A DNA stretch of 64,000 nt from Anadara kagoshimensis (lineage: Eukaryota; Mollusca; Bivalvia; Arcoida; Arcidae): contig CM037861.1 of NCBI GenBank assembly GCA_021292105.1, positions 29,899,674-29,963,673 of the forward strand, in the 5' to 3' direction. Shown here one piece after another: positions 21,801-64,000 of the stretch. Positions within the stretch are counted from its first letter, which is position 1, and each line of letters begins with the position of its first letter. The notes under the pieces were generated by a model that saw only the letters and a list, made by a program, of their open reading frames with translations, ran no database searches and had not been told where the DNA came from. The translations under genes and the position numbers were made by a program.

Positions 21801-24800
21801 CAATCAATTAATCTAAAAACTCAAAATTGAAGCCTTATAATTAATTTCACTGCTGGTATTTATTACAATGCAATGTTTGAATTTCTTTGAAAAATATTTC
21901 TGTCTGTCCCAGTTTAAAGAAGTATTCTTACTTTGCTCAATCTGTAATTGTAAGCATTCTCTATAGTGACCACAGGTGACCTACTCTTTTTCGAACTCTT
22001 TAGAGGTGTCTTTACTGTCCACCAAGACAAGGGGCAGCGGTTTTGAGTCTTATCCAAAAGACTATACTAGTATTAAGCTTTTAACAGTTCTAGTAAGGAG
22101 ATAAAAATCATTTCAGAAAATGTGTAAGTCCCCACTGAGGTTCGAACCCACAACCCTCAACTTCGAAAGCCAGTGACAGCACCACTCGGCCATGTCCGCT
22201 TCTGTAAGATATACTACCGGTAGTAGATAAAAAGATACAAACACACTGCTTATCTTTCCTATCAGTGGTCTAAGTGACCCAAAATAAACTGTAATACCAA
22301 TGAACTGAAGCATTTTATTGAAACCCTTAGGAATAAATTCCAAACCTGCACATTTTACTTCTCTGTTTATCTTGTTTATTCATATCACATTGGAAGTTGA
22401 ACTCCATCCAATTCCTTTTAAAATATTCTAGGTTCAATGAATCTGCAGCTGGACTTATGCATTTATTTGATGGCCATGCAATGAATTCATCAATATGTTT
22501 CCATTCCTGGTAACCAACCTTATTTTAGCAATTTTGTGAGAAAATACTTTATATAAGCACTATACTTTTAAGTTTTGAAAATTTGGCTATAAATAATTTT
22601 AAATTTGTGAAAACCTAGCACCACTTTGGCCCATGACTATTGGTGTTATGGTTCAAACCAGAGGGTGGGGAATCAAACGCCTGACCTACAACCCACATAG
22701 GTGAACACCCTACTGATTGAAGAGCCAACACTACAACAGATTATCTTAGTCATATATACATGTGTATCTGATCTTCGGTTTTTTGTGAATGACATCATGC
22801 AGTGTAAGTACATAAATCGATATGAACTTTTTGATCTTTTAAAGAACATCAAATCTACCCACTACGACAAAATCTGATCTACAACTATACCTATAAGTGT
22901 TAAATAAACTAGTGCATAAATTACCTCAAAGTGACAGGTAAAAATACTTCAAAACTCACTCAAAAACAGTCTCAAGTATTTGACAGTCAAAATGTTGAAT
23001 GCAAGTCTTTGTGACTAGTTTTGAAGACATTTAGCATTAACCCTTGAATTTAAGAAAACAGGATTTTAATACAGGGTAAGCCGAAACTGAGGAGATTCAC
23101 TTAAGAGAAAGTGATTTGTAAAACAGATTCAAAATTTATTCAAAAATCCCTAGAAGCATTTGACTCAAATTGAGGGTCAAAAAGTTAAATACGACTTTCT
23201 GCAGTTATAAACAAGAATGCTACAGCCTTGGCCTCAATTTCACAAGCATGCCTTCACTAAAATTTTCTTTTAATTAAATCTGGCAAATTTGAAACCTTAA
23301 TAATTTTGTTAATTTTCAAGCTATTAGGAAATTTCAAGTGCCATATTTAGGACCATTCTACACTTATTACATATATATATTATATATATATATATTATAC
23401 ATGTATATATATTTTAACTTTTTGACTGTAGTACCGATAACATAAAAGATTTTCAAAATTGCCATTTGCAAGTAAAGAACAATCTTAGTTAAATAAGGAA
23501 TGATTGTGAAACTGGAGCCTGTTTTGCAGCAATACATCTCTGGACTTGTACAAATAGAAAATAGAAAACCAGGGATGTTCCGATTGTAGATATTACATTT
23601 CAGAAAAAGTTATCCTCAATCAAAATACCTGTTCAATTTATAACTTAACACTTTTGATTTACTAAATCATCTTTAATAATTCAAATTTCACTGTAAAAAA
23701 CAGGTCTAATAGGTGTTCAAATTAAAAACCCTTACATTATTAGGACATTTACTGTTTACTGTAAATAGAAATTCAAAATACTGGTACATAGAGCCCAACC
23801 TCTTGAATTCAGACATTGAAAAGATTAAGCCTCCTTTGATTGTTTGCCAACAATAACTTTCTAATCCTGTATTTGTGTGATCTGAATCAAAAGATTTAGA
23901 CTTGATTTGTTGACTTTAAAGGTACTAAGTAAAGCTATTTAATACAAACACCTTATTGTTACCTGGTTAAAAATAATCAACATATCCTCTACAAGATCAA
24001 ACACATTTATATATACAATGTACTACAGACCTGACCAAAGTTTAACACTGAACTAACAAAAAGTTTGTCTGTCGAGCGCTGGAGAAATAGTTTGCTAGTA
24101 GCCAAAAAAATGCCGAGAGATGGATAGCAGCTGCCAAAAAGCAACCGAGATACAGCTAAGGAGGGGCAAGATGAGCTGCCAATTCGGTAATTTTTCGTTA
24201 GCTCACTGTCAAATTTTCATCAGGTCTGTACTGTACAGGTATATAACTTATATTGTCTGGATTACATTGTCTAAACAATCATGTCATTTTTCTGTTATGA
24301 GATTATGTGTTAATAAGTCAAAAACCATGAAAAATATCAGATTTAATCTTTTATGAAATTTGATAAAAAAAAAACAAACCTCAAATCCCTTTAACTTTGG
24401 TTAAGTCATAATTAAAAATTTTGAGTTATAAAGATCTAATCAATTTAAAAAAAAAAAACCTCAATCTCTTTAACTTGGTTTTAAAACTCATAAATTGTAA
24501 GTTCGAATTTAAAGATCCAATCCATCAATTCATTAAAAAAAAAACTCCAATCTCTTTAACTCTACTTTTAAAAGGTTCACTGTAACAATTAACAATCAAT
24601 TTCACATTGTGCTATCAATTAACTTTTATTATCAAGGGCACGGTATCTTAAGATTTAAAGATTTTGAAATTCGATTAAAAAAAAAAATCTATTGCAATCT
24701 CCACAACTCTTTTTTATTTGAAATTCTTTGTGTAACAATAAACAATCAATTTTACGTTACACTCTTAATTAACTTTCAACAAGATTTACCACACAGTTAC

Positions 24801-40020: not shown

Positions 40021-40238
40021 ACAGTACAGACCTGTCAAAAAGTTAACATTGTGCTATCAAATTAGTACCGAATCTGCAGCTCGTCGTTAGCTTCATTTTG
40101 ACAGTTTTTTCGCAAACTGCTATCCATCTTTCAGATGTTTTTCGATTACTAGCTATCGATATCTCGGTCACTCGACAGTCGAGCCTCGACTCCTTTTTGT
40201 TAGCTGTCGTGTTAAACTTTTCGACAGGTCTGTACTGT
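40021..40238. mobile_element. MITE family M copy
   Basis: Inverted ends ACAGTACAGACCTGTC and GACAGGTCTGTACTGT. Its left half continues with TAGTACCGAATCTGCAGCTC, the same order of motifs as the satellite unit at 50.3-51.3 kb. Confidence 0.8.
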
Positions 40239-40918: not shown

Positions 40919-41048
40919 ACATACAACTGTTGAAAAAGGATGTCATAAGAGACAGGAAAGGGTTTGCCAAAGGCTTAACCAGAAGTATCAACAACCATTT
41001 GTTTTCATCCGGTTGTGTTTTAAACCATTAAACGGGGAATTATAACTA

Positions 41049-41263
41049 CAGTACAGACCTGTCGAAAGTTTAACACCAAGCTAACGGATTCAGTTCCGAA
41101 TTGACAGCTCATTTCGGCTTCTCATCAGCTATATCTCGACAACTCTGCGATCTATCTCTCGGTCGTTTTTTGTCCACTTGCTACCCGTATCTGGGCCGCT
41201 CGGAGGCCAAACTTCGGCTCTTTTTCATTAGATAAGCGTTAAACTTTCGACAGGTCTGTACTG
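41049..41263. mobile_element. MITE family M copy, well preserved
   Basis: About 27-bp inverted ends (CAGTACAGACCTGTCGAAAG...TTTAAC and complement) flanked by TA on both sides, as expected for Tc1/mariner-type target sites. No coding capacity. Confidence 0.85.
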
Positions 41264-41675
41264 TACGTTTGGCGGGTATGTACATGCTTATTTGTGCACT
41301 TGCATTGGTTCCATGAGTTATTTTTAGAAAATGTATTCATTAAAAATAGCATTTCAACTGATACCCGGAGTCTTCTCGATATAAGTGTTAAAATATCTTT
41401 ATATCCTGTCGTAAAAAAACCTATTAAACTAATCTACCACAATGCTTTAAAAACTATTTTTAAGATTTACTTCCATAAGAACTTCAATATTTAGACAATA
41501 AACAATCCAAGTCTTTAACTTAATGTGAGTTTAGACCTAATAAGTCACCTCTGACGGAAAAACAAACATTTAATGTTGAAATAAGAAATCCTGAAACTGT
41601 TTACTTAAGTTATTCCAAATCGATCAGGATAATCCAATACCATGTCACATAACCTTTATCCTTACAACACATATA

Positions 41676-41778
41676 CACAATACAGGCATGTCGAAAGTTT
41701 AACACTGAGCTAACGAAAAGAGTCAAAACTCGGCTGTCGAGATATCGATACCTAGTGACCGAAAAACTGTCGAGAGAT
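41676..41778. mobile_element. MITE family M, truncated copy
   Basis: TACAGGCATGTCGAAAGTTT and AACACTGAGCTAACG, broken off where the next copy begins at 41780. Confidence 0.7.
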
Positions 41779-41779
41779 A

Positions 41780-42279
41780 CAGTACAGACCTGTCGAAAGT
41801 TTAACACTGCGCTAACGAAACGAGTTGAGTTGAGTTGAGTGTTTTTAACGTTCCAGTCAAGAATATTGTACTTATATATCAAGACGTCGCCAGCTATAGG
41901 CGAAGATGCAGAAATTTTGCCTGTGCGTTGCGCTGATGGCATTATACAGCAGGGTTCTTTAGCGTGTCAAGTCCACCATGACACGGGACCTTGTTTGTTT
42001 TAAGTTCCCATCCGAAAGAACCGTGACTTTTATTTGGTAATGCCGAGTGCTTGGCGAAAGAACAGTCACTACCCACTTTTAAGTCTTGGGTCAGACTCGG
42101 CCGGGGTTCGAACTCACAACCTCCCACTTACGGAGCAAGCACTCTACCAACTGAGCTATCGCAGCGGTCGCTAACGAAAAGAGTCGAAGCTCGGCTGCCA
42201 AAATATGCCAGTCGGCAGCCGAGCTTGGACCCCGTTTCGTTAGCTCAATGTTAATTAAACTTTGGACAGGCCTGTACTG
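41780..42279. mobile_element. MITE family M copy split by a SINE-B
   Basis: Left end CAGTACAGACCTGTCGAAAG, right end GACAGGCCTGTACTG, TA on both sides. The interior is interrupted at 41825-42168; without it the MITE is about 140 bp. Confidence 0.85.
41825..42168 (-). mobile_element. SINE-B copy nested in a MITE
   Basis: Flanked by 15-bp duplications with one mismatch, CGCTAACGAAACGAG (41810-41824) and CGCTAACGAAAAGAG (42169-42183). On the minus strand: A box GATAGCTCAGTTGGTAGAG, B box GAGTTCGAACCCC, middle ACTGTTCTTTCGCCAAGCAC, and a (CTCAA)n tail. Low divergence suggests a fairly recent insertion. Confidence 0.9.
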
Positions 42280-42624
42280 TATGTAAATAAACACCTCACA
42301 AAACATTTGTTCTTTAAACGTATACTATTTTTTTATTGTAGTGTTTGTTGGTACTCATTTTACAGCGCTAATTAAATTTGATTGCATTTAAAAGAAATCT
42401 TGAGTTTAATGTTTTATTAATAAAAAAAATTGAACATATAAAGTTTCGAAATATTAAGGAATCTTTCTCGATCTAGCAAAAATACTAAAATGATTTTTTG
42501 AATTCATATATCTCGAAAAAAAAAAAAAATTATTTTTGGAAACTAAACAAAAGAACCTTCTTTTCGTTCCAGATTCAAGATTTATAACATGTAACTTTAT
42601 TACTGCACTGCGTACATAAGTGGG

Positions 42625-45289: not shown

Positions 45290-45465
45290 AATCAAAAACA
45301 ATATACTAACCCATGTCCGAATTACAATTTCAAGTAAAAACTGACAAGTTAGGTTAAACACGTGAACTTCCACCAGGTAAGTGAGGCCGGGTGCTCCGGA
45401 AGGGCAAACATCTTCTATTTAGCTTGCTACACCCGTCACGTGTGTAACCAAAAAAGAGTGAAAGG
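45290..45465 (+). mobile_element. Dispersed element D copy
   Basis: CCATGTCCGAATTACAATTT, GTGAACTTCCACCAGGTAAG, GGCCGGGTGCTCCGGAAGGG, TAGCTTGCTACACCCGTCAC. Forms an inverted pair with 45545-45710. Confidence 0.7.
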
Positions 45466-45544
45466 TGATTACAAATTCCATGTGTAAAACAAGGGACATT
45501 AGCTGGAAAAACGAACTTATCCTGACTGGATATGTTTGACGTCC

Positions 45545-45702
45545 ATGTTGCAGATTCTTTTCATTCTCAATTTTAATTTCACACTTGGCAGGTGTATTTA
45601 GCTAGACGGGTACTTACCTTTCCAACCTACGGTCTCACTTCCATTGTCGAAGTTTCATGTGTTTACTTAATTTGTCGGTTTAAAAGTTTTTTCTTTGCTT
45701 TT
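45545..45702 (-). mobile_element. Dispersed element D copy, inverted
   Basis: Complement of the 45290 copy (CTTGGCAGGTGTATTTAGCT, CTTACCTTTCCAACC, CACTTCCATTGTCGAAGTTT), running directly into the 47-bp minisatellite. Confidence 0.75.
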
Positions 45703-46587
45703 GGGATTGTGGTTTGAACATGGACCGGTATGTTTGTGGTTAACTTTTGGAATTGTGGTTTGAACATGGACCGGTATGTTTGTGGTTGACTTTTGGGATT
45801 GTGGTTAAACATGGACCGGTATATTTGTGGTTGACTTTTGGGATTGTGGTTTGAACATGGACCGGTATGTTTGTGGTTGACTCTTGGGATTGTGGTTTGA
45901 ACATAGACCGGTATGTTTGTGGTTGACTTTTGTAATTGTGGTTTGATCATTGACCGGTATGTTTGTGGTTGACTTTTGGAATTGTGGTTTAATCATTGAC
46001 CGGTATGTTTGTGGTTGACTTTTGGGACTGTGGTTTGAACATGGACCGGTATATTTGTGGTTGACGTTTGGGATTGTAGTTTGAACATGGACCGGTATGT
46101 TTGTGGTTGACTTTTGGGATTGTGGTTGAACATTGACCGGTATTTTTGTGGTTGACTTTTGGGATTATGGTTTGAACATGGACCGGTATGTTTGTGGTTG
46201 ACTTTTGGGATTGTGGTTTGAACATGGACCGGTATGTTTGTGGTTGACTTTTGGGATTGTGGTTGAACATGGACCGGTATATTTGTGGTTGACTTTTGGA
46301 TTGTGGCTTGAACATGGACCGGTATATTTGTGGTTGACTTTTGGGATTGTGGTTTGAACATTGACCGGTATGGTTGTGGTTGACTTTTGGGATTATGGTT
46401 TGAACATGGACCGGTATGTTTGTGGTTGACTTTTGGGATTGTGGTTTGAACATAGACCGGTATGTTTGTGGTTGACTTTTGGAATTGTGGTTTGAACATG
46501 GACCGGTATGTTTGTGGTTGACTTTTGGAATTGTGGTTTGAACATGGACCGGTATGTTTGTGGTTGACTTTTGGGATTGTGGTTGAG
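45703..46587. repeat. 47-bp minisatellite, about 19 copies
   Basis: Unit GGGATTGTGGTTTGAACATG-GACCGGTATGTTTGTGGTTG-ACTTTTG. Copies differ by a few substitutions and 1-bp gaps. The first unit is the edge of element D. Confidence 0.95.
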
Positions 46588-46645
46588 CATGGTCCTCGGT
46601 GACCGATAGGTTTACGGATCACATCGTCTAGGTTCGAATCCCAAT
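46588..46645 (+). mobile_element. SINE-C head fragment
   Basis: GGTCCTCGGTGACCGATAGG and B box TAGGTTCGAATCCCA, joined to the minisatellite end. Confidence 0.5.
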
Positions 46646-46844
46646 GGGAATTTTTCAAAATATAAAGTATTTCAAAAAATCAGATATGTATTGTTGTATG
46701 TACAACGCACACTTGTATGGTGTTTTTTCTTCATTACGTGTTAAAAAGAAGAAGAAAATGTATTTTTCCATTAAACAAACTTTCTTCTGGATAATAATGA
46801 TTGTCCTATGTAGAAGAAATGCTTGAAATTATTTCTTTATAGTA

Positions 46845-46897
46845 CCATGACTGAATACTTTTGAATTGTTATGAATAATGTATTCAAAAGTAGCTAT
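46845..46897. repeat. Hairpin repeat P, decayed copy
   Basis: ACTGAATACTTTTGAATTG and its complement around ATGTATTCAAAAGTAGC; outer arms changed. Confidence 0.6.
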
Positions 46898-46954
46898 TTT
46901 AAGTGCATCATTTCATAAGAATGGTTAAGACCCACATAACAATGAACTCGACCA

Positions 46955-47399
46955 GGGCACGGTTGTTCAAAACCCTCTTAAGCTTAAGCTTACTGGAGCT
47001 GTAAAAAGCTAAATACTAGAGTAGTCTTTCGGATGAGACTCAAATCCGAGGTATCGTGTCTCAATGCATGCTAAAGACACCTCTGTAGTGTTCGAAAACT
47101 AATAGGCCACCTGTGGCCGCTACAGAGGAAGCTTACAATTAGAAACGATTGAAACAGACTGAACAAGAAGATAAAATTGATATGGGTCAGTGAAAATCCA
47201 AATTGTTATTAAATTTCAAAATATTTTATATTTAAATACAGTTTTGACTTACTGTTTCTATTTCATAATAACTATTGTACGTGCTGCCAATAACGTTTAA
47301 ACAGAAGTTTCGGAAACACTGCCTAAAACACAAAATACTATTTTGGCTAGCCAACTGGTTAAGCTAACAGAGCTTTAAACAATCGGGCCAAGATGGATA
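46955..47399. mobile_element. MITE with nested repeat R
   Basis: Inverted ends GGGCACGGTTGTTCAAAACC and GCTTTAAACAATCGGGCC. Repeat R (GTCTTTCGGATGAGACTCAA to CTTACAATTAG) sits at 47030-47160. Confidence 0.6.
47030..47160 (+). repeat. Dispersed SINE-tail-like repeat R
   Basis: Carries GTCTTTCGGATGAGACTCAA and AAAGACACCTCTGTAGTGTT; inverted partner of 21945-22065. Confidence 0.65.
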
Positions 47400-47489
47400 G
47401 TTAATTATTTTTACGTGAAAGATCTTTCAAAATGATTTTAGAAAAAAATAAAAAATTCAGGATTGGCATGGATATTTTTGACGTCTCAT

Positions 47490-47690
47490 AGTATCATGTT
47501 CCTTTTACTCAATTTTGGTTACACACTTGGCGGGTGTAGCTAGCTAAACAGGAGTTGCTGACCCTTCCGGAGCACCCGGCCTCACTTCCCTGGTGGAAGT
47601 TCACATGTTTAACCTGATTTGTCAGTTTCAGTGTTTAATTTGCTTCTGGATTGTGATTCAGACATGGATTAGTGTGTTTGTTTTTTATTT
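47490..47690 (-). mobile_element. Dispersed element D copy with a single edge unit
   Basis: CTTGGCGGGTGTAGCTAGCT, CTTCCGGAGCACCCGGCCTC, GTGGAAGTTCACATGTTTAA and then one copy of the minisatellite-like edge (GGATTGTGATTCAGACATGG). Shows the state before amplification. Confidence 0.75.
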
Positions 47691-48320: not shown

Positions 48321-48689
48321 CTTTCAATACGTCTCAGTCATGGAATACAACTTTCTTACAATTTTATATTCAAACTGTTTGTACACAAAAACTGCATGTA
48401 GCGAGTTGTAAATTTGTCTATATATTCATGATGAGTGGAGGTTTATTCCGTAACATTAAACACCAAATATTAGGTTAAAAGACTTTCAATTATGTACACT
48501 CAAAAACATATTACATGGACTTAGTTGTCACATAAAATCACAGTGTGTACCGTTATATAGCCAATTTGTAAAAAGCTGGCTTAGAGGAATGTAATCGTCA
48601 TGTGTCACATTAGGATAGCCAATTCATTCTATTGATTCGCACGAATACAACATATTTTTCGTTAATTCTCCTCTAATTCCTTTGGAATA

Positions 48690-48897
48690 CAGTACCGACC
48701 TGTCGAAAGTTTAACGCTAAGCTAACTGAAACTTCGCCCTGCTGAGTAGAGAAGCCGAGGTATGGATAAATCGCCAGTGGTTGAAATGCCGTCGAGAGTT
48801 TTTATATCACCTGTCGAAAAGACTGACGAGGGGTAAAGATGAGTTGCCGATTCGACACTAGACGTGACCGTAGTGTTAAACTTTCGACAGGTCTGCA
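48690..48897. mobile_element. MITE family M copy
   Basis: CAGTACCGACCTGTCGAAAG and CTTTCGACAGGTCTGCACTG ends; internal GTCGAGAG and GCTAACTGAAACTTCG. Confidence 0.8.
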
Positions 48898-49169
48898 CTG
48901 GCTGTCTCCTCACATTAAAGAACCCATTTCCATGGTTGCATCAACCAACTATTAAGCTATGTGAAGTGGCGATGAGATAGAAATAAAACACTCTAATCCT
49001 GTATAGATGTGACAGGGATGTTCGGGGAAATAAAAATGTGGAAAAATCACCTAAGTGGAGCTTGAAACTAGAACAGTGGTAGGCAATAAAGGAATTATGT
49101 TGGCAAGAGGACACCCAAGGGAACGCGTTTACACCACATGTATATAAAAATAACCAGACGTGTTTGGGT

Positions 49170-50260: not shown

Positions 50261-51288
50261 ATACAGTGCGTTTAACACGTATAGCCAACGAATTGGTACC
50301 GAATCCGCACCTCGTTAGCTACAGTGCAGACCTGTCGAAAGTTTAACACATAGCTAACGCCCGGGATTGGTACCGAATCCGCAGCCCGTCAGCTTCAGTG
50401 CAGACCTATCGAAAGTTTAACCCTGATAGCTAACGTCCGGGATTGGTACCGAATCTACAGCTTGTTAGCTACAGTGCAGACCTGTCGGAAGTTTAACCCT
50501 GATAGCTAACGTCCGGGATTGGTACCGAATCTACAGCTTGTTAGCTACAGTGCAGACCTGTCGGAAGTTTAACCCTGATAGCTAACGTCCGGGATTGGTA
50601 CCGAATCCGCAGCTCGTTAGCTACAGTGCAGACCTGTCGAAAGTTTAACGCTGATAGCTAACGCCCGGGATTGGTACCGAATCCGCAGCCCGTCAGCTTC
50701 AGTGCAGACCTGTCGAAAGTTTAACACATAGATAACGCCCGGGATTGGTACCGAATCCACAGCTCGTTTGCTACAGTGCAGACCTGTCGAAAGTTTAACA
50801 CATAGCTAACGCCCGGGATTGGTACCGAATCCACAGCTCGTTAGCTACAGTGCAGACGTGTCGAAAGTTTAACACATAGCTAACGCCCGGGGTTGGTACC
50901 GAATCCACAGCTCGTTAGCTACAGTGCAGACCTATCGAAAGTTTAACACATAGCTAACGCCCGGGATTGGTACCGAATCCACACCTCGTTAGCTACAGTG
51001 CAGACCTGTCGAAAGTTTAACACATAGCTAACGCCCGGGATTGGTACCGAATTCACAGCTCGTTAGCTACAGTGCAGACCTATCGAAAGTTTAACCCTGA
51101 TAGCTCACGCCCGGGATTGGTACAGAATCCGCAGCTCGTTAGCTACAGTGCAGACCTGTCGAAAGTTTAACCCTGATAGCTAACGCCCGGGATTGGTACC
51201 AAATCCGCAGCTCGTTAGCTACAGTGCAGACCTGTCGAAAGTTTAACCCTGATAGCTAACGCCCGGGATTGGTACCAAATCCGCAGAC
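50261..51288. repeat. 74/76-bp satellite derived from MITE family M, about 13.5 copies
   Basis: GCAGACCT starts recur at 50326, 50400, 50476, 50552, 50628, 50704, 50778, 50852, 50926, 51000, 51074, 51150 and 51226. The unit is TACAGTGCAGACCTGTCGAA-AGTTTAAC plus GCTAACGCCCGGGATTGGTA-CCGAATCC(A/G)CAGCTCGTTA. It equals the end and left interior of family M. The two lengths come from CACATAGC versus CCCTGATAGC. Confidence 0.95.
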
Positions 51289-51484
51289 TGGTGTGAAGCT
51301 AGCCCGCAATTCTAGCCCGCAATTTTTTCATATATCATCAAGCGGGCAATTCAATTTTATTTAAATACGGTTAGTCCTAATATCATTCGATTTATAAATA
51401 TTTGATATTTAGGGCGACCTGCTATTGCACACAACTTTTTATAAAGACCACCTGTATATTAAGACCACAGGAACCGTGATTCTA
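51289..51484. other. Spacer between the two satellites
   Basis: Begins with a duplicated CTAGCCCGCAATT and an inverted AGCGGGCAATT, then a fragment of the GACCACCTGTATA-type MITE (about 51410-51475) like that at 36.1 kb. Confidence 0.6.
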
Positions 51485-54400
51485 AGTGTGATTACGAAAT
51501 TACGCATAGGGCGTAAAATGAGTTTTCCCCATCTAGGCCTTTTAACCACGGGTAGATCTATCCAATTGCAACATTTGGTGAAAATTTCAAGAACCCTAGA
51601 GGGGTAGAACGGGTCTTACGAGAGCTCAGAAGGACCATACCCCCCTTTTGATTGTGATTTCGTAAGGACCTGCTACGTTTGAAGTAGCGTACACAGAGAA
51701 AATGCGTTTCCCCATCTAGGCCTTTTAACCACGGGTAGATCTATCCAATTGCAACATTTGGTGAAAATTTCAAGAACCCTAGAGGGGTAGAACGGGTCTT
51801 ACGAGAGCTCAGAAGGACCATACCCCCCTTTTGATATGTGATTTCGTAAGGACCTGCTACGTTTGAAGTAGCGTACACAGAGAAAATGCGTTTCCCCATC
51901 TAGGCCTTTTAACCACGGGTAGATCTATCCAATTGCAACATTTGGTGAAAATTTCAAGAACCCTAGAGGGGTAGAACGGGTCTTACGAGAGCTCAGAAGG
52001 ACCATACCCCCCTTTTGATATGTGATTTCGTAAGGACCTGCTACGTTTGAAGTAGCGTACACAGAGAAAATGCGTTTCCCCATCTAGGCCTTTTAACCAC
52101 GGGTAGATCTATCCAATTGCAACATTTGGTGAAAATTTCAAGAACCCTAGAGGGGTAGAACGGGTCTTACGAGAGCTCAGAAGGACCATACCCCCCTTTT
52201 GATATGTGATTTCGTAAGGACCTGCTACGTTTGAAGTAGCGTACACAGAGAAAATGCGTTTCCCCATCTAGGCCTTTTAACCACGGGTAGATCTATCCAA
52301 TTGCAACATTTGGTGAAAATTTCAAGAACCCTAGAGGGGTAGAACGGGTCTTACGAGAGCTCAGAAGGACCATACCCCCCTTTTGATATGTGATTTCGTA
52401 AGGACCTGCTACGTTTGAAGTAGCGTACACAGAGAAAATGCGTTTCCCCATCTAGGCCTTTTAACCACGGGTAGATCTATCCAATTGCAACATTTGGTGA
52501 AAATTTCAAGAACCCTAGAGGGGTAGAACGGGTCTTACGAGAGCTCAGAAGGACCATACCCCCTTTTGATATGTGATTTCGTAAGGACCTGCTACGTTTG
52601 AAGTAGCGTACACAGAGAAAATGCGTTTCCCCATCTAGGCCTTTTAACCACGGGTAGATCTATCCAATTGCAACATTTGGTGAAAATTTCAAGAACCCTA
52701 GAGGGGTAGAACGGGTCTTACGAGAGCTCAGAAGGACCATACCCCCTTTTGATATGTGATTTCGTAAGGACCTGCTAGTTTGAAGTAGCGTACACAGAGA
52801 AAATGCGTTTCCCCATCTAGGCCTTTTAACCACGGGTAGATCTATCCAATTGCAACATTTGGTGAAAATTTCAAGAACCCTAGAGGGGTAGAACGGGTCT
52901 TACGAGAGCTCAGAAGGACCATACCCCCTTTTGATATGTGATTTCGTAAGGACCTGCTACGTTTGAAGTAGCGTACACAGAGAAAATGCGTTTCCCCATC
53001 TAGGCTTTTAACCACGGTAGATCTATCCAATTGCAACATTTGGTGAAAATTTCAAGAACCCTAGAGGGGTAGAACGGGTCTTACGAGAGCTCAGAAGGAC
53101 CATACCCCCCTTTTGATATGTGATTTCGTAAGGACCTGCTACGTTTGAAGTAGCGTACACAGAGAAAATGCGTTTCCCCATCTAGGCCTTTTAACCACGG
53201 GTAGATCTATCCAATTGCAACATTTGGTGAAAATTTCAAGAACCCTAGAGGGGTAGAACGGGTCTTACGAGAGCTCAGAAGGACCATACCCCCCTTTTGA
53301 TATGTGATTTCGTAAGGACCTGCTACGTTTGAAGTAGCGTACACAGAGAAAATGCGTTTCCCCATCTAGGCCTTTTAACCACGGGTAGATCTATCCAATT
53401 GCAACATTTGGTGAAAATTTCAAGAACCCTAGAGGGGTAGAACGGGTCTTACGAGAGCTCAGAAGGACCATACCCCCTTTTGATATGTGATTTCGTAAGG
53501 ACCTGCTACGTTTGAAGTAGCGTACACAGAGAAAATGCGTTTCCCCATCTAGGCCTTTTAACCACGGGTAGATCTATCCAATTGCAACATTTGGTGAAAA
53601 TTTCAAGAACCCTAGAGGGGTAGAACGGGTCTTACGAGAGCTCAGAAGGACCATACCCCCTTTTGATATGTGATTTCGTAAGGACCTGCTACGTTTGAAG
53701 TAGCGTACACAGAGAAAATGCGTTTCCCCATCTAGGCCTTTTAACCACGGGTAGATCTATCCAATTGCAACATTTGGTGAAAATTTCAAGAACCCTAGAG
53801 GGGTAGAACGGGTCTTACGAGAGCTCAGAAGGACCATACCCCCCTTTTGATATGTGATTTCGTAAGGACCTGCTACGTTTGAAGTAGCGTACACAGAGAA
53901 AATGCGTTTCCCCATCTAGGCCTTTTAACCACGGGTAGATCTATCCAATTGCAACATTTGGTGAAAATTTCAAGAACCCTAGAGGGGTAGAACGGGTCTT
54001 ACGAGAGCTCAGAAGGACCATACCCCCCTTTTGATATGTGATTTCGTAAGGACCTGCTACGTTTGAAGTAGCGTACACAGAGAAAATGCGTTTCCCCATC
54101 TAGGCCTTTTAACCACGGGTAGATCTATCCAATTGCAACATTTGGTGAAAATTTCAAGAACCCTAGAGGGGTAGAACGGGTCTTACGAGAGCTCAGAAGG
54201 ACCATACCCCCCTTTTGATATGTGATTTCGTAAGGACCTGCTACGTTTGAAGTAGCGTACACAGAGAAAATGCGTTTCCCCATCTAGGCCTTTTAACCAC
54301 GGGTAGATCTATCCAATTGCAACATTTGGTGAAAATTTCAAGAACCCTAGAGGGGTAGAACGGGTCTTACGAGAGCTCAGAAGGACCATACCCCCCTTTT

Positions 54401-55660
54401 GATATGTGATTTCGTAAGGACCTGCTAAGTTTGAAGTAGCGTACACAGAGAAAATGCGTTTCCCCATCTAGGCCTTTTAACCACGGGTAGATCTATCCAA
54501 TTGCAACATTTGGTGAAAATTTCAAGAACCCTAGAGGGGTAGAACGGGTCTTACGAGAGCTCAGAAGGACCATACCCCCCTTTTGATATGTGATTTCGTA
54601 AGGACCTGCTACGTTTGAAGTAGCGTACACAGAGAAAATGCGTTTCCCCATCTAGGCCTTTTAACCACGGGTAGATCTATCCAATTGCAACATTTGGTGA
54701 AAATTTCAAGAACCCTAGAGGGGTAGAACGGGTCTTACGAGAGCTCAGAAGGACCATACCCCCCTTTTGATATGTGATTTCGTAAGGACCTGCTACGTTT
54801 GAAGTAGCGTACACAGAGAAAATGCGTTTCCCCATCTAGGCCTTTTAACCACGGGTAGATCTATCCAATTGCAACATTTGGTGAAAATTTCAAGAACCCT
54901 AGAGGGGTAGAACGGGTCTTACGAGAGCTCAGAAGGACCATACCCCCCTTTTGATATGTGATTTCGTAAGGACCTGCTACGTTTGAAGTAGCGTACACAG
55001 AGAAAATGCGTTTCCCCATCTAGGCCTTTTAACCACGGGTAGATCTATCCAATTGCAACATTTGGTGAAAATTTCAAGAACCCTAGAGGGGTAGAACGGG
55101 TCTTACGAGAGCTCAGAAGGACCATACCCCCCTTTTGATATGTGATTTCGTAAGGACCTGCTACGTTTGAAGTAGCGTACACAGAGAAAATGCGTTTCCC
55201 CATCTAGGCCTTTTAACCACGGGTAGATCTATCCAATTGCAACATTTGGTGAAAATTTCAAGAACCCTAGAGGGGTAGAACGGGTCTTACGAGAGCTCAG
55301 AAGGACCATACCCCCCTTTTGATATGTGATTTCGTAAGGACCTGCTACGTTTGAAGTAGCGTACACAGAGAAAATGCGTTTCCCCATCTAGGCTTTTAAC
55401 CACGGGTAGATCTATCCAATTGCAACATTTGGTGAAAATTTCAAGAACCCTAGAGGGGTAGAACGGGTCTTACGAGAGCTCAGAAGGACCATACCCCCCT
55501 TTTGATATGTGATTTCGTAAGGACCTGCTACGTTTGAAGTAGCGTACACAGAGAAAATTACTTTCCCCATCTAGGGCTTTTAATCACGGGTAGATCCATC
55601 CAATTGCAACATTTGGTTTTCAAGAACCCTAGAGGCGAAGAACGGGACTAACAAGAGCTC
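51485..55660. repeat. 184-bp satellite, about 23 copies
   Basis: CCCCATCTAGG recurs 23 times from 51527 to 55565, spaced 182-184 bp. The unit has GGTAGATCTATCCAATTGCA, GGTGAAAATTTCAAGAACCC, ACGGGTCTTACGAGAGCTCA and a short hairpin GCTACGTTTGAAGTAGC. Inner copies are almost identical; the first and last copies are clearly diverged. No long ORF. Confidence 0.97.
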
Positions 55661-57590
55661 GGAATTACTATGATAACTAGTTTTCTGTTTTTAATTACAT
55701 GGAATGTTGGAAATCATATTTCCAACATTTATTACAAAATGTAACAAGTTGAAAAACTAAATACAATGTTTATTTATTTTAACCATAAAATAAAAATTAT
55801 AGTGTCGATGTAAGAAGAAACTGCATAATTATGCACCAGGTGTACCTTTTCAAACGCATTATGGCACATATAAAAAGTTTACAGAATTAATCAAAGTACT
55901 GAAAGTGCTCTATGTATTAGGTTGACTATGAGTTCTAAACGGCAAATACAACATCACCATTTACTTATTCTGTAACCATAATTATAATAAAACAACTAAT
56001 ATAAAACATGTTTATTTAAGCGATAGATACATATACTCATAATCGTCTGTTTAAATGATATGAATTTAACGTTTCCAAGTACGTTTAAACAATTTTAAGT
56101 GTAGAAATGTTGTCCGTTTATTTTAAATGTGGTTTTATGGAATTAATTTTGTAAGTTAAATTTTTATTTGGTAAATAATTAATATGAGAGTAAATTCTAA
56201 AACCGTAATTTATATGCAAAATCTGATGTTTTAAATTTCATTGATAAGTGTCTATTCTGTCAAGATGTTAGGACAATGACGTCAATGATAGGTTAAATCT
56301 GGGTGTTGGATGTACACAAACGACTCCAGGATTATTTTCACAACAATATTACACCATATGAACTATACCTATAGTGGGTTACTATATACATGTATATATA
56401 TAACTATGTTATTTAATGATGTATGACAAATTTCAAATAAATTCATTGAGAAGATATAATTGTTTTTTACCCCTAAATCATTCAGCCACACCGTATGAGG
56501 AAACACATAATTAAAAGTATGTGATGTAATGTTAAATTCTCAATGTATTAATATTTCAAAACTAAACCGAGTGACGAATGCATTTTCTCATTTTGGCACT
56601 GTATCTTTAAAACAGTCATTGCAAAACAATAATATGTAATAGTCTGGCTGACAACTCTATTTTTATGCTTAAATTTACATTTGATGATATTTTTGTCAAT
56701 GGTCAATAACTGACAATTCATTCTGAAATTTTTGCTTGGGATACATATAGTGGTTTTAGAGTGGATTCCAATCCAGATGTTACGATGTTAAGTCATTTTG
56801 GTGTCAAAGGTTCAAATAAGTGTAATTCTAACGATCATTTCATTCGAATACTTATATAAAACAAGCAATATGAGTACCGGAAATAAGGAAATTGTGGTTG
56901 TAGTTTAACATTTTGTTTATATAACACCCGCTTTGAAAGTGCCAAAATCACATATATTTTAAAAAGAACTGTCAATATTAAGCGTTAACGTGTACATGTA
57001 ACTGAATACTGATGTCTTGAATACAATGCTTTTGTCTAACGTATATCCTAATTTCTCAATGACACTTTTTCACAACCATTAGAGTCTAATTATAATTCAG
57101 AGAAAGAACAGATTTAACATTAAATCTCAATTGGGTAAAAGTTGCAAAACATTTCAAATAAATAAATCTTAATCCTAGTGTAATTGTTCTGCAAACAACT
57201 AGACGCGCACTTGTTTGAATTACTGGGTACACCTTTAATAACTAAATAACTGACTGACGAATTACGGTACATCACTATTGATGTTTCTGATGATGTTTAT
57301 TATGTAACGTAAACTACAGACGAGTTTTTGTAAGATAAATAATTGAATGACATATTCCACTGAACAAACTCGAAAAGTAATCGCACATTAATTACACTAC
57401 ATATTTTTATAGCTAAATTACTAAGGCGACATTTTGTTCTAGCTAATGCTTGACTTGAGTTTCACTTACTAGTAATGTGATCATCAGAATAAATGTAATA
57501 AAAATGTTAAATATCTAGTGTTTAATTAATAAAGATAATTAAAATGATTTCAGATTGTATAAAGAATATCGTTATTTCAATGAAACCGGA
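55661..57590. other. AT-rich stretch without recognised features
   Basis: No coding exon, SINE or MITE could be recognised on either strand; the least repetitive part of the window. Confidence 0.55.
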
Positions 57591-57594
57591 TGAC

Positions 57595-57775
57595 TTACTT
57601 TTGTATTCCGTTTTATAATAAGACACCTTGTTCAGTTAGTATCAAAACTAAAAAACATTATTTAGCGAGTATCAAAATCAAACACCTTATTCAGTGAGTA
57701 TAAAAACACCGTATTCAGAGATTGACAAAATAAAAACACACTAGCGAGTGTAAAAACCCTTATACAGTGCTCTAA
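57595..57775. repeat. About 30-bp degenerate repeat, 5 copies
   Basis: Variants of (T/A)GCGAGTATCAAAA and ACACCTTATTCAGTGAGTA. Confidence 0.6.
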
Positions 57776-57894
57776 ATATTTTTATTTCTCTGTATATGTT
57801 ACAGAACAGAATTAAAAGGCATTAACAAAAACAATTTATACACACATCTATTATTATAACAACTTATAAATCCCACAATCTTTTAAGGTATATC

Positions 57895-58012
57895 CATACC
57901 ATGGTGACGTCGTCGTTTTGTGCGTAAGGACAAACTCTCCGATTTTACGTCTTTCTACCTATGACGTCACGAATAAATGGTGTTCGGCACCTACCGAATT
58001 ATGGCGGGACGC
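57895..58012 (+). promoter_or_regulatory. CpG-rich promoter candidate with CRE sites
   Basis: About 13 CpG dinucleotides in 120 bp in an otherwise CpG-poor, AT-rich region. Contains TGACGTC (57905-57911), the full CRE palindrome TGACGTCA (57962-57969) and ATGGCGGGAC (58001-58010), which resembles YY1/E2F sites. Orientation is inferred from the possible exons downstream on the plus strand. Confidence 0.4.
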
Positions 58013-58358
58013 TCTAATGCGTATCATTTAGAATAATTATCTGCATTCACAAAAGCTTATAATTCACAACACCAATGTTGTGTATTATTTTTAAAGAACA
58101 AAATGTATAATTTAACGGAAATAAGGAAGATCTACACTTTTGAGGGCGCAAATCTAAATATTTGAAAGATTTGAGAACGTCGTTTAAAATTTGAGGTACT
58201 GTGTTTTATATCGCTGCTTTATGTGACTTTTTGGGAGAAGGGTTATTCAAATAAAAATAGTACGACGCAAACGCACGGTTGTTCAATAAACATACTTCAT
58301 AATAATTTTTCTCAGTGTCAAATTTTGACTATGCTCTTGTATTTGCTTTTCATTTCAG

Positions 58359-58426
58359 CGGCCTAGAATCAAGAACCCTTCATCAATGTATACGACTCCT
58401 CTTTCCAATTTAATTCGTTGGTATTG
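58359..58426 (+). CDS. Possible small coding exon
   Basis: 68 bp between a good acceptor (TTTGCTTTTCATTTCAG) and donor TATTG|GTAAGGG. One frame is open throughout: RPRIKNPSSMYTTPLSNLIR then WY. It joins the next candidate (58789) in phase. No upstream coding exon was found, so it could also be an untranslated exon or chance. Confidence 0.3.
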
Positions 58427-58788
58427 GTAAGGGTTGCTAGGGGTACAGATAATATGGTATTTCAAATTCGTTTTGTTTTGCAAAGCCAAATAGCTCATTA
58501 TCACTGTTTTTGCTTATTTGTTAACACCAAACGAAAAACATTGAGTTTAAAATTGTATCCTAGGACATTAATGGTGAGTTCTTATGTAAGGAATAAGGTT
58601 TCTAATCTTGGTTTTGATTTTAATGCAATTTTATGAAAAAAGTAGCTTGACTACCCTCTATTTTTTCTAAACTTATATATTCATGCGCAACACATGTTAA
58701 AATCAGCGATCGTATTTTTATAAAACATCAAAATAACGAAAGGGTGTTACTTTTAGTTTTCCGAAATTTTAATGTTCTTTCTTGATAG

Positions 58789-58821
58789 GCGGCGCAGTAG
58801 AAAAATACCGCATGTCCGGAA
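58789..58821 (+). CDS. Possible 33-bp coding exon
   Basis: Follows acceptor TTCTTTCTTGATAG and ends GGAA|GTAAAA, the same donor type as exon 2 of the other gene. In phase with the 58359 candidate it adds RRSRKIPHVR. A possible last exon from 58957 (WRFRIFLSILNTYLEILAC, then a stop) overlaps a CTCF-like motif and is not claimed. Confidence 0.25.
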
Positions 58822-58950
58822 GTAAAATCAATTAGTCCAAATTATCTTTATGACATAATGTTAAATTTAAATGCAAGACTCTTTTGGATTCTAAGCATGG
58901 CAAAAAGTATTAAAGCTTATTATTTTTGACCATTTATGTCGTGAAAATGT

Positions 58951-58965
58951 CCACCAGATGGCGCT
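58951..58965 (+). promoter_or_regulatory. CTCF-like motif
   Basis: CCACCAGATGGCGCT matches the bilaterian CTCF core pattern CCAC(C/T)AG(A/G)(T/G)GGCGC. It lies between the candidate promoter and exons and the LINE/transposon block. Confidence 0.4.
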
Positions 58966-59315
58966 TCAGAATTTTCTTAAGTATTCTGAATACCTACCTT
59001 GAAATTTTGGCATGTTGAGTGGTTAATGCCCATGTACAACATATTAAAATTTCAAAATATGTTTTCAATGTATGGGCCTACCTCAACATGTTCCCAGTTT
59101 ATTCTAATTTTGTGTGCCCTTGTCGTGGAATACTGATATATGGAATACATTTCGATCTGTTTGTAGAGACACATCTTTTCTATTGCAATATTGTATTGGG
59201 GAAATGTATTGGACATTCTACATATATGGATATACTATTTAATTATTAAAATGCATAAATGAAAAATGCCAAAAATGATTACTTTGTGCTTCTTTCCAAA
59301 TAAACATTATTTACT

Positions 59316-59664
59316 TCATTTTCTATAATCACGTGGGATTTGATTTTTATCTTGATCGAAAAATATGTTTAATATATTTGTTACATACTGACATTCTAAA
59401 AATAAATGTTGTTCAGTTTCTTTAACTTTCCAACAAAAACTGCATAGTTCAGTTTCAAGAAGCTTGCATTTCATTGTTCGGCTGCTTATAAAATTAATAT
59501 TGTGTTTAATTTTATACTGGAAATCTTGATTTTTTGTTTCATCGGTGACAAGAAAACATAATTAATCAACACATCCAATCTCTTATTTTTGTGCAAAATT
59601 TCTAATTTCTTTTAGATATATATGTAAAACATTTTGGAAACTATTTTCCTTTATTTCAATTTTA
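59316..59664 (-). pseudogene. LINE reverse-transcriptase ORF, C-terminal part
   Basis: Minus-strand frame reads FLVTDETKNQDFQYKIKHNI, then CSFCWKVKETEQHLFLEC and a stop at 59316-59318. The CxxC...ETxxHLFxxC pattern is the zinc-binding region that follows the reverse transcriptase in non-LTR elements (zf-RVT type), and the spacing resembles L1/Tx1-like LINEs. Two in-frame stops lie upstream (near 59540-59580). The ORF continues at 63487 beyond the inserted element. Confidence 0.8.
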
Positions 59665-60405
59665 GTCAGGGGGCAGATCCCAAAAATGTGACACCCCCTA
59701 AACTTTTTTGTTAAAAGCAGGAAACATGGTGGATCTTATTGTCCTATATGTACTTAGTCACGCTAGGTATGTTTCCACCTTGACATTTTCCGTGTAATGA
59801 AAATATGGCTGCCAATCCAAGATGGCCGCCAAAAAAGATAATTTAAGTATAAAAATTTAATATCAAATCAACCACTAAATCTTTTTAGTTGCAATTTGGT
59901 ATTTTATCAATTAAATATTTATACTAATTTTCTATAATAAACATTGGTTGTAAAATTCAATATGGCCGCCATTTTCAAGATGGCCGACTTATTATTATCG
60001 CGCTGCATTTGAAATCTAATACGACAAAGGACGTCATTATTTTATGACATAAAACCAATGTATTGTATTTAATATACATGTACTTAGTTAAGCTGGGTTT
60101 GTTTCCACCTTGACCTTTTTCTGTTTAATGAAAATATGGCTGCAAAATCTAAGATGGCTACCCAAAAAGATAATTTAAGTATAAAAATTTAATATCAAAT
60201 CAACCACTAAATCTTTTTAGTTGCAATTTGGTATTTGATCAATTAAATATTTATACTAATTTTCCATGAATTAACATTGGTTGTAAATTTCAATATGGCC
60301 GCCATTTTCAAGATGGCCGACTTGTAATCATCGCGTTGCATTTTAAATCAAATACAACAAAGGATGTCATTATTTTATGACATTAAACTAATGTGTGTAT
60401 GTTAC
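59665..60405 (+). repeat. Left terminal inverted repeat (2 x 330 bp)
   Basis: TACTTAGT anchors at 59751 and 60081. Each half has GTTTCCACCTTGAC, AAAATATGGCTGC, AAGATGG(C)C and ATTCAATATGGCCGCCATTT-type sequence. Confidence 0.85.
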
Positions 60406-61500
60406 ATATTATGTGAAAATATTATCAGTACTGCTCTTTAAACTTATTTTATGTAAATTAAATAATTTAAATAACGAAGCCAAAACATTTTTCAAGTTTT
60501 CAATAAATAACATTTGAATTAATTTAATAGCTATGACTTTTGATGTCTGCAATAAAAAATAGTCCTCTCGCTTATTCAAACATTTAAAGAGGTCCAACAG
60601 CAACATAATTAACATCCACAAGCACCTTGCAGCAATATATTCTATACGTATATCCCTTATATTTATTATATAAGTATGATCAGAATATAACATATTTCCC
60701 CGGTTCAACAATTCAACAGCTATAAATATAGAATTGAACAACAATCTTTTATTTCCAAAATATTAAAACAAAAACCAAGACCATAACAAAAACATCTACA
60801 TGGCTACAAAGGATAAGCCTTTGACCATTATCTGTTTCTTTGGCTTCTTTGGCACAAAGAACAATTCTTATGTCTGCCTCTTTATGATTTGCTCAAAGAC
60901 CTGATTCACTCGGCCAGTACTCGAGAATGTAGTATCGCATCCAAAAAACCTAACTGAACCATTAATTGCTTGCCATATACCATTTTGTTTATCTGATTTG
61001 ATATAAAACTAAAAGAATCAGATTCATTCTTTATTCTCGTCATATGTACGTATATTGAATTATTTCATTTTTCAACTTTCCATCTCTATTCTGGAGTACA
61101 TGTATTATTCTTAAAATTGAATTATTCTCACCAGTCCTTACTGATTTTAATGCTCTATGATTGTGATTTGTGGATGGATTGTTGTGTTTTTGATTTATTT
61201 TTTTCTTGTCAGACTTTATAGAATGCTCAAAATATCAATCAAACAAAACATCTACTTTATCACTATTCCTGAAATAACATTTTGTTCTATCTGCAAATCT
61301 ACAAAGTTGTCAAAGGTTTGTGCATTGGCGTTTTCCGAATGCAGTTAACCAATGTCATAATTTCTAGTATGGTACAAATCGTTATACCTTTTTCTGAACA
61401 TTTCTGGATGACATCATCAACCTGTGGCTACATCAGATGTTTGTTGATTGGTCGTAAACTACCTGATGATGTTACGTAGACTACACTTATGCCTTTTTGT
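60400..61500 (-). pseudogene. Broken gene of an uncharacterised metazoan family (HEEADTRI / DTDVLVLL type)
   Basis: Minus-strand pieces in order: QLCRFADRTKCYFRNSDKVD then VLFD, a stop, and YFEHSIKSDKKK (61190-61309); SNQINKMVYGKQLMVQLGFL (about 60950-61010); NHKEADIRIVLCAKEAKE and HVDVFVMVLVF (about 60770-60889); and a 111-codon open frame 60409-60744. These match the layout of proteins common in cnidarian and mollusc genomes with HEEADTRI and DTDVLVLL motifs, which carry no established function. Several stops and frameshifts, so not expressed as a full protein. Confidence 0.65.
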
Positions 61501-61779
61501 CCAGTATACCACTATCACCGTTACCTCTTCCTGCTTTCACTGGCACAATGATATTATTTAGCAATTATTGTTTTGATTTTTGAAACTCCATATCGCTACC
61601 GAAAAATATAAAGACCTGTACGATTATATATGGTACGACATTGGTTAGCAGCATTGGAAAACCACAATATGCACTTTGAAGATTGTCTCGCAGCAACCAC
61701 AAAGTATCGTTTTAGAAAATAGCGTTAGAGTAGATTGTTTGCTTTTATAAAGGCTTGAACCAGATGAAAAGAATAAAAA

Positions 61780-61920
61780 CAAACATACCAATCCATGTCA
61801 AAATCACAATTATGAAGCAAAGCAAAAATCTTGAAACTTTCAAATGAAGTTTAACACAGGAACATCCACCAGCGAAGTGAGAACAAGTGACCTGGAAGGA
61901 TAATTAAGCACCCCACATTT
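61780..61920 (+). mobile_element. Dispersed element D copy
   Basis: ACATACCAATCCATGTCAAA, GAACATCCACCAGCGAAGTG and GGAAGGATAATTAAGCACC; inside the foldback-like element, with a single edge unit. Confidence 0.6.
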
Positions 61921-61944
61921 TTAGAAAGAAAGGAACATGGAACT

Positions 61945-62160
61945 TTGGGACACCACATATCCATGGTATTTTCCGATACAGAGTCACCATACTATATTGT
62001 GATGACAGCCATGAAACTTTATGAGGGCCTTAATAAGCCAAGGCTTGCGCTATCCCTCATCAACAATTCATTTGTAAGCAGTTTGACCGTAGAGAGATGG
62101 AATTCCATGTTGCCTGAGAATTTGAACAATTTTATAAATATGGGGAAGAATAAGGCTTAA
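61945..62160 (+). pseudogene. 71-codon open frame, unassigned
   Basis: Reads TESPYYIVMTAMKLYEGLNK, PRLALSLINNSF and WNSMLPENLNNFINMG. Lies just before a stretch homologous to the minus-strand pseudogene, so it may be another piece of the same family, but I could not match it. Confidence 0.3.
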
Positions 62161-62400
62161 TTGACTAGTTTTGTATCAAATGAGTTGAGCAAGGAAGTAC
62201 TTGGCAAGGAGTCAGTGGTTATTGGAGGGTTGCGGATCCAAATACTACATTCTCGAGTTCAGTGCAGTAACATCAGGTCCTTGTGCAAACTATAAATGCG
62301 CAGACTCAAGACTTGTTGCTTATTCAGAGTGAGATGGATAGATGGGAAGTGTTCAAACTAATCACAGAACTTGAAAACTCTGAACTGAAAGCTTATGAAT
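62160..62400 (+). pseudogene. Second, inverted remnant of the same gene family
   Basis: SNELSKEVLGKESVVIGGL and ILHSRV parallel SNQINKMVYGKQLMVQLG and ILHSRV on the opposite strand near 60950. At DNA level ATACTACATTCTCGAGT is shared exactly, followed by AACATCAGGTC and ATAAATGCGCAGAC-type matches. Confidence 0.6.
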
Positions 62401-62796
62401 ATACGATAAAGTCGGCAATGTTGTTATCAATTGTAAATTCTTTTGTTTGTAATCTATTTTAAACTACATGAACTTCACTGTCATATGTTCCGTCATTGCC
62501 ACGTTACAAGATGTGTTCCGGCCATGCAAATAAAACACAATAATTATCAGAAAATAGTTAGGAATCTATGATTTTTTCCTAGTTAAAACTACCATTAACT
62601 CTTGTGAGCAGTTGGGAAACTGGCCTACAATATTTATGAATGTGGAATTGTTGAATCTTTATGGTGTTTGTGCAGTTTTATTATTGTGAAAAACACATTC
62701 TACTGCACAGTTGTTTGTGGAAGTGAATGATGTCGGTGTAAAAAGTTTTTGAAGAGAGTCAGTTAACTAGTATATAACAATTCAATATATTAGTTT

Positions 62797-63486
62797 ATTG
62801 TATTAAAACAATGCAGCGCGGTGATTATTAGTCGGCCGTCTTAAGAAATGGCGGCCATATTGAATTTTACAACGACAGTTTGTTCATGAGAAATTAATAT
62901 AAATATTTAATTGATCAAATATCAAATTTCCACTCAAAAGGTTAAGCAGTTGATTTGTTATTAAATTTTCATTTTAAAATTTTTTGGTGGCCATTTTGGA
63001 TTTGGCAGCCATATTTTCGTTAAACGGAGAAGTCAAGATGGAAACATACTTAGCCTAACTAAGTACATATATATTAAATGCAATACATTGGTTTTATCTA
63101 ATAAAATAATGACATCCTTTGTTGTATTTGATTTAAAATGCAGCACAATGATTATACGTCGGCCATCTTGAAAATGGCGGCCATATTGAATTTTACAACC
63201 AATAATTATTCACAGAAAATTAGTATAAATATTTAATTGATAAAATACCAAATTTTAACTTAAATGGTTAAGTGGTTGATTTGATATTGAATTTTTATAC
63301 TTAAATTATTTTTTTGGCGGCCATCTTGAATTGGTAGCCATATTTTCATTAAACGGAAAAAGTCAAGGTGGAAACATACCTAGCGTGACTAGTACATATA
63401 GGGCAATAAGATCCACCATGTTTCCTGCTTTAACAAAAAAGTTTAGGGGGGTCAAAAGAGGCTACTTTTTGAGATCTGCCCCTGAC
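62797..63486 (-). repeat. Right terminal inverted repeat (2 x 330 bp)
   Basis: Complement of the left repeat; (C/G)TA(A/G)TACATA anchors at 63058 and 63387. About 85% like the left repeat by eye. Confidence 0.85.
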
Positions 63487-64000
63487 TATTTAGTTATAAA
63501 CTATTTCTGACTTCTCTAAGCGGATTTTCTTGTAGCTGGATTGCACTTTTCCAGATTTCCGGAATTGTATCAATCAAGGTGTATAATTTAGATTATTAAT
63601 ATTAAAATCAAACTTAGCTGTAAACTCATTATAAGACATAATATTTCCTTCATCATTTGTTAAAACCTTTATAAAATTAATATTTTCTTTGCCTACATTT
63701 TCCAAAAGTTTTATTTTTTTAATGTTAGGATTTACCAGAGATATTGTGACATTACGTCATTTGTGTTTGTGATGTAATTATTTGGTAATTGGCCCATGCA
63801 GTGATCACCGATCACCAGAACTTATTAATCAACGGTGTGATTGAAGCAAACCCATCTTTAAAAACATTAGCACCCTCGCACTCTTCGAGATCATCCAGAA
63901 GCAGACATTTCCATGGTAAATGGCAGAGCGGATTTTCTGCACCCATGAAATCTTTTGACAAAAGAACTTGATATGGGATACCTTTAAACTACCTTCATCA
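63487..64000 (-). pseudogene. LINE ORF, upstream part, split by an insertion
   Basis: Minus-strand pieces in several frames: SLKVSHIKFFCQKISWVQKI, then VFKDGFASITPLINKFW, ANYQIITSQTQMT, KVLTNDEGNIMSYNEFTAKF and IDTIPEIWKSAIQLQENPLR. Order and wording fit the region between reverse transcriptase and zinc motif in L1/Tx1-like elements. At least three stops and two frameshifts. It runs off the window end. Confidence 0.75.

Follow-up and report, generated by a model that had tools for sequence, protein, structure and literature searches.

Internal tandem expansion of one end of a putative Tc1-type MITE in Anadara kagoshimensis, and related arrays elsewhere in the genome

How does the end of a short transposon come to be repeated in tandem, and is the product a satellite? 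The question is raised by 64,000 nucleotides of the Anadara kagoshimensis genome (the window; assembly GCA_021292105.1, contig CM037861.1, positions 29,899,674 to 29,963,673 of the forward strand), in which a first-pass annotation had proposed that the end of a MITE family had become an array of 74/76-bp units. The conversion of transposons into satellites is usually inferred from its end products, whereas here a single MITE family is present in one genome as monomers, as a dimer, as arrays of middle size and as one long array.

The MITE family and the array in the window

Eleven full copies, picked by hand from the window and from sampled loci, align as one MITE of 208-269 bp with matching ends, and have the TIRs and short body of a Tc1/mariner-type MITE. 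One end (X) reads ..CAGCTCATCTCG..CTCGTTAGC-TA-TATCTCG, and the other (Y) reads ..GTCGAAGCTCGG..GATATGGATAGC. As expected of a TA target duplication, TA adjoins 17 of 37 non-array tips against a background of 9.2%, a count that leaves out the array units of the window and of L022 (C7:25.0 Mb) and the inner dimer tip at 41785; the remaining 20 tips carry other dinucleotides, CA in seven. Assignment to the Tc1/mariner type is suggested by the TA and by the tip sequence, which presumably resembles that of Tc1-like fish elements. A text search of the literature with the tip CAGTACAGACC found no transposon paper by title, which is not proof that the family is undescribed. In the 1.115-Gb genome the core of the TIR, with up to 2 mismatches allowed, matches 39,601 times in forward and 38,414 times in reverse orientation (about 78,000), the reversed pattern giving 2 and 5, and exact tips number 19,987.

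At least five dispersed copies had been claimed within 27 kb, and five indeed lie between 24019 and 48902 of the window:

24019..24235, minus strand: full MITE copy, more diverged
40021..40238, plus strand: full MITE copy with interior TACCGAATCTGCAGCTCG
41047..41265, plus strand: full MITE copy with TA at either side; interior CATCAGC-TA-TATCTCG uninterrupted
41676..42284, plus strand: dimer stage, a MITE copy whose left end is doubled in tandem, with a single right end and an internal SINE
48688..48902, minus strand: full MITE copy

The uninterrupted interior of the copy at 41047 matches the point where the array units are cut. In the dimer at 41676, the left ends are 102 bp apart and join at GAGAGA-TA-CAGT, and it is CA rather than TA that stands before the outer left tip. 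A SINE-like sequence with, by eye, a tRNA-like end lies in two MITE copies (window ~41825-42170 and L033 ~2490-2820), starting with GAGTTGAGTTGAG in both, and a similar sequence stands at 42654-42939 of the window. Two minus-strand ends of locus L014 (6236 and 6391, 155 bp apart) carry the MITE tip with a different interior (GTTTGGACAGGTG..), and could belong to a related family or to another end array. At 45338-47628 of the window, inverted arms of 128 nt (88% complementary) surround a 46-bp tandem array (45698-46592), perhaps another element with an internal tandem array.

The array itself, and the insertion that interrupts it, comprise the following features:

50262..51286, plus strand: left half of the tandem X-end array, a shortened first unit and 13 core-bearing units
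50262..50267, plus strand: outermost left tip of the composite MITE, TA + CAGT, read directly from the sequence
51278..51286, plus strand: 9-bp target duplication AATCCGCAG of a large element, with its second copy at C5:29975406
51287..64000, plus strand: large inserted element, left 12.7 of 24.4 kb; the element ends at C5:29975405, outside the window
51515..55664, plus strand: 184-bp tandem array in an arm of the large element (TRF: 22.6 copies, 99% matches)

The 74/76-bp array is present where the first-pass annotation had placed it: TRF reports 50292-51286 (period 76, 13.2 copies, 93% matches), preceded by the shortened first unit, in which part of the core is missing. Core-bearing units of the left half are spaced 74 or 76 bp, and the 13th is cut by the insertion. 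With up to 3 mismatches allowed, the TIR core CAGACCTGTCGAAAGTTTAA has 24 matches in the window, of which the array contributes 13; 100 shuffles gave none. The TIR is part of the unit, as had been said, but the unit starts 7 bases ahead of the 20-mer quoted for it, at TACAGTG, which is the element tip. Its interior is shared with the copy at 40021-40238, as also claimed (alignment score 74), and slightly better with the copy at 41047 (80). The average likeness between units of the locus is 92-95% by one measure, whatever their separation, and 87-92% by a second, in which gaps and a 45-bp unit are counted; any excess between neighbours is slight. Block structure inside the array is weak: only lag 1 of lags 1-18 gave p<0.05 (0.024, uncorrected), lag 16 giving p=0.12.

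The extent first given to the array holds at its start, but position 51286 is an interruption by a 24,446-bp insertion rather than an end, so that the window shows the left half only. The remainder begins at C5:29975406, beyond the window, and the best matches in a search with two units were the window array and, 25 kb downstream, C5:29975426-29976222. Read as its reverse complement, the sequence left of the right half is that found right of the left half; the two flanks are the arms of one inserted element, with AATCCGCAG at each side. In an alignment of 226 bases with 5 mismatches and 2 gap columns, the arm ends are 97.8% identical; farther in than ~230 bp, the 1.48 kb compared is made up of the 184-bp repeat in both arms. 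With the flanks joined as in an empty site, the plus-strand cores form one run whose spacings are mostly 74/76 bp through the joint, and the tandem array predates the insertion of the 24.4-kb element into it. The joined run has 26 plus-strand cores, 25 in X-ends and the last in a nested MITE copy; with the shortened first unit, the locus has 26 X-ends.

The inserted element seems to belong to a family of large elements, foldback-like or MULE-like, that is young. Among 271 candidates, 40 scored matches to its 200-bp end have 97-100% identity, and facing pairs of this end at C3:68.31, C16:33.47, C12:9.31, C9:30.65 and C5:40.62 Mb, spaced ~7, 13, 21, 24 and 37 kb, respectively, are candidate single elements. 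One ORF of at least 80 aa is listed in the part that lies in the window.

Composite plan and recurrence across the genome

The two halves together lie in one copy of a TA-flanked MITE of ~217 bp, which starts with an outer left tip, continues through the tandem ends into a body that holds a nested MITE, and closes with a single right end of its own. It is the X-end of this putative Tc1-type copy that has expanded internally to give the array, each unit starting at the tip (TA-CAGT) and stopping at an interior TA some 74-76 bp in. Unit 25, the last X unit, is diverged; it reads GTTAGC-TA, and at this TA a nested MITE copy, with a SINE inside, is inserted Y-end first; after the right tip of the nested copy come TA-TATCTCGG and then the host MITE body and right end. 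The host MITE thus has 26 left ends and one own right end. The nested copy occupies the same kind of interior TA as the cut point of the units; its opposite orientation excludes it as the array's seed.

The proposal that a MITE end had become a satellite therefore holds for the unit, a tip-to-interior MITE end repeated in tandem, and the array is seen together with its source element; it is, however, still embedded in a MITE copy. A stand-alone satellite was rejected, as the right half continues into the MITE body and right end. Units are head-to-tail, as in classical satellites, but the array is ~2 kb long and inside a MITE copy, whereas classical satellites form long arrays independent of their source. 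Foldback elements have tandem repeats in both inverted arms, which is not seen at this locus; at C1:824-828 kb, 43-bp units lie on the plus and then the minus strand, as in a foldback, according to hit positions and a reading of the left part.

The same plan, many copies of one end and one closing right end, was found at three other places read end to end. At L022, the array opens at a MITE tip with TA and has 27 chained cores, found with up to 6 mismatches and spaced 90-91 bp for the most part, followed by the MITE body, one right end and TA. The composite at C7:15.9 Mb has units of 69 and 82 bp. At C13:35.50 and 35.66 Mb the units are of 82 bp, the MITE interior is nearly gone, and TA adjoins both tips; these two share a left flank and are therefore a duplicated pair rather than two jumps.

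Arrays of the same end at other loci have units of 43, 63, 69, 82, 85, 90 and 97 bp, and a unique event was accordingly rejected. The longest array seen, C1:6593699-6612610, extends over ~19 kb with 96-97-bp units. In 20 stretches of 10 kb at positions fixed beforehand (10 and 25 Mb of C1-C10), cores at up to 4 mismatches were present in six and an array in one (L022). Genome-wide, direct pairs of the exact 17-base core number 2,152 (934+1,218) at gaps of 20-50 and 3,019 (1,259+1,760) at gaps of 51-80, the latter also counting next-but-one units of 43-bp arrays. These 5,171 pairs are not independent, because one array yields many. Chance clustering of independent copies was rejected, as outward-facing control pairs occur at 10 and 11 sites in the two gap ranges (21 in all). 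Among the direct pairs listed, all on C1, there are at least 19 places in the first 32.3 Mb, in ~12 clusters, some with a single pair.

The 76-bp array appears confined to its locus: among the listed matches, the best scored of 387, only its two halves reach 91% identity, the next locus having 83%. Since at least 91% is reached only here among the matches listed, against ~78,000 core matches, this array is rarer than the MITE, so that, as far as tested, it is not the more widespread of the two, which would have spoken against the first-pass annotation. The survey of other loci which that annotation had called for therefore gave a divided answer, the 76-bp type being at this locus alone among the matches listed and same-end arrays of other lengths being present at many loci.

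Junctions and the origin of the first join

Unit joins are readable in 12 locus groups, the 97-bp array not being counted, and fall into three kinds (eight, two and two groups):

TA plus tip: C5; C13 group; C7:15.9; C1:22.98-23.0; C1:23.09; C1:5.03/5.11 (full tip placed by position in the exact-tip search); C1:0.824; window 41676
Tip without TA: L022 (C7:25.0) at GTGG|CAAT; C1:12.53/13.33 at GAGA|CAGT
Off the tip or unclear: C1:7.68/7.70 (AGT; 63-bp arrays); C1:9.44

As the first five groups with TA plus tip (C5 to C1:23.09, X-type) may share one ancestral join, the independent joins of TA plus tip are perhaps only four. Three joins of the window locus read GTCAGC-TT-CAGT instead of GTTAGC-TA-CAGT. 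All four typed X-type unit consensuses end in TTAGC before the TA; those of C13 and C1 align so as to end at the interior GC-TA of the full copies (CTATAT in 7 of the 11), and those of C5 and C7 have shorter interiors, aligned 13-18 columns earlier.

Genome-wide, the left junction word CGTTAGC-TA-CAGTACAGACCTGTC has 209 matches against 0.6 expected, and the right junction word GACAGGTCTGTACTG-TA-TATCTCG has 64, in 32 loci, against 1.2, both expectations being calculated by base composition from the 19,987 exact tips. One hundred of the left-word matches represent at least 40 loci (chained within 5 kb), 27 single and 13 multiple, the latter with spacings that include 59, 75-76, 82, 85, 88, 91 and 177. 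Six of the 32 right-word loci are multiple and are themselves arrays, with spacings of 78-94 or multiples. A scrambled word gave four matches, one of which lies inside the array at C1:5.11, so that this control is not a pure null. The right word can arise at either MITE end and is thus no proof of one kind of event. Within the same 100 left-word matches, left and right words stand in the order of a complete nested insertion at C5 (529 bp apart) and at C8:10.168 Mb (685 bp).

That the junctions are mostly an interior TA plus the exact tip suggests joins made by a transposase and followed by exchange. A Tc1-type transposase cuts at the tip of its element and joins it at a TA. The cleaved tip of one MITE copy would have been joined to the interior TA of another, the donor being either a nested copy, with the outer left end and the inner right end acting as a new pair, or a sister chromatid that carries the same end. 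Such a join would yield two left ends and one right end, and unequal exchange or slippage between the tandem ends could then have raised the number, to 26 at C5 and to other numbers elsewhere. The tip-to-TA joins, the many left ends with one right end, and the nested insertions at such a TA fit a start of this kind. Each unit carries the element tip and, presumably with it, a transposase-binding end. We take a transposase-made first join with later exchange as the main explanation, and as a whole it has about an even chance of being correct.

The main rival dispenses with the transposase: replication slippage, or duplication through microhomology, would have doubled a MITE end, the TA being a chance homology of two bases, and unequal exchange would have followed. 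Against it, the units of ten of the 12 locus groups begin exactly at the element tip, base expectation is far exceeded by the junction words, and the units of the four types compared with full copies showed no recognisable host flank. In its favour, the 63-bp arrays at C1:7.68/7.70 join at the microhomology AGT, which slippage explains equally well, the joins of L022 and C1:12.5 lack TA, and the five X-type groups may be a single event. Slippage probably explains some arrays, and as the general explanation it is a serious possibility that falls short of probable. Alternatively, a tandem end may be an old trait of one MITE lineage, its composites having spread by transposition with little recurrent birth of arrays. 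Identical junctions in X-type units at C5, C13, C1 and C7 would agree with this, as would the C13 composites that retain both tips with adjoining TA; yet that pair arose by duplication, units of 43, 63, 85, 90 and 97 bp apparently derive from other interior points or from the other end, and the 76-bp unit is at C5 alone among the listed matches of at least 91%. Such an old lineage is improbable. Least credible, with a very small probability, is that neighbouring MITEs were joined as stem-loop hybrids during replication, or that a circular element was copied as a rolling circle. Both are proposed in reviews for MITE or transposon arrays, and many left ends with one right end resemble the Helitron arrays reviewed there; the present element, however, has TIRs and TA flanks, not Helitron ends, and as there described neither process predicts a junction at an interior TA.

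Starting from transposase-made joins, a wider reading can be offered tentatively, and is rather doubtful as a whole: this Tc1-type MITE family would repeatedly turn its own ends into arrays, the transposase joining cleaved tips to a favoured TA within the family, and the composites, keeping both tips, could move. If true, the passage from MITE to satellite would feed itself, with the monomer, the dimer, ~26 units and ~19 kb in one genome. As there are many separate arrays with readable junctions, models of transposase-made joins, slippage, stem-loops and rolling circles can be tested by the positions of breakpoints.

Comparison with known systems

The Xstir satellites of Xenopus, derived from the MITE Xmix (Hikosaka and Kawahara, 2004, as summarised in PMC12628747 and PMC9659126), are similar in that the MITE, the tandem array and composites of MITE plus array coexist. 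Their source is the TIR according to one of these reviews and internal MITE sequence according to the other (PMC12628747, PMC9659126). Unlike Xstir as there summarised, the present arrays have several unit lengths, apparently come from both ends of one family, and mostly have junctions of tip plus interior TA. Tetris of Drosophila virilis, a foldback-like element with ~220-bp repeats (TIR-220) in its TIRs (Dias et al., 2014, PMC4079207), likewise has repeats inside a non-autonomous element that share part of its terminal domain and expand into satellite-like arrays. In contrast to Tetris as described, a putative Tc1-type MITE is involved here, one end is expanded in the four arrays read end to end, and the tip is within the units. 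In Xenopus tropicalis, miDNA4 is a Tc1/mariner MITE with an internal array of variable copy number (Scalvenzi and Pollet, as summarised in PMC12628747 and PMC9659126); its tandem repeat is reported there as captured, whereas the repeat here is the element's own end.

Ac of maize is a hAT element. Its alternative transposition (PMC3744419) likewise yields tandem direct duplications from transposon ends; unlike here, the part of that work considered describes no satellite arrays. Another parallel is offered by the transposon dimers formed through insertion-site preference (McGurk and Barbash, 2018, as summarised in PMC12628747), where transposition makes the first tandem copy and exchange expands it; those dimers, as summarised, are of whole elements at one target site, whereas truncated ends are joined at an interior TA here. 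Satellites derived from MITEs or TIRs, arrays inside MITEs and dimers made by transposition are thus known, as far as these sources describe them (PMC12628747, PMC9659126, PMC4079207, PMC11136912). Joins of tip to interior TA may already have been reported; what the present family adds is the recurrence of the arrays, together with the TA/tip junctions.
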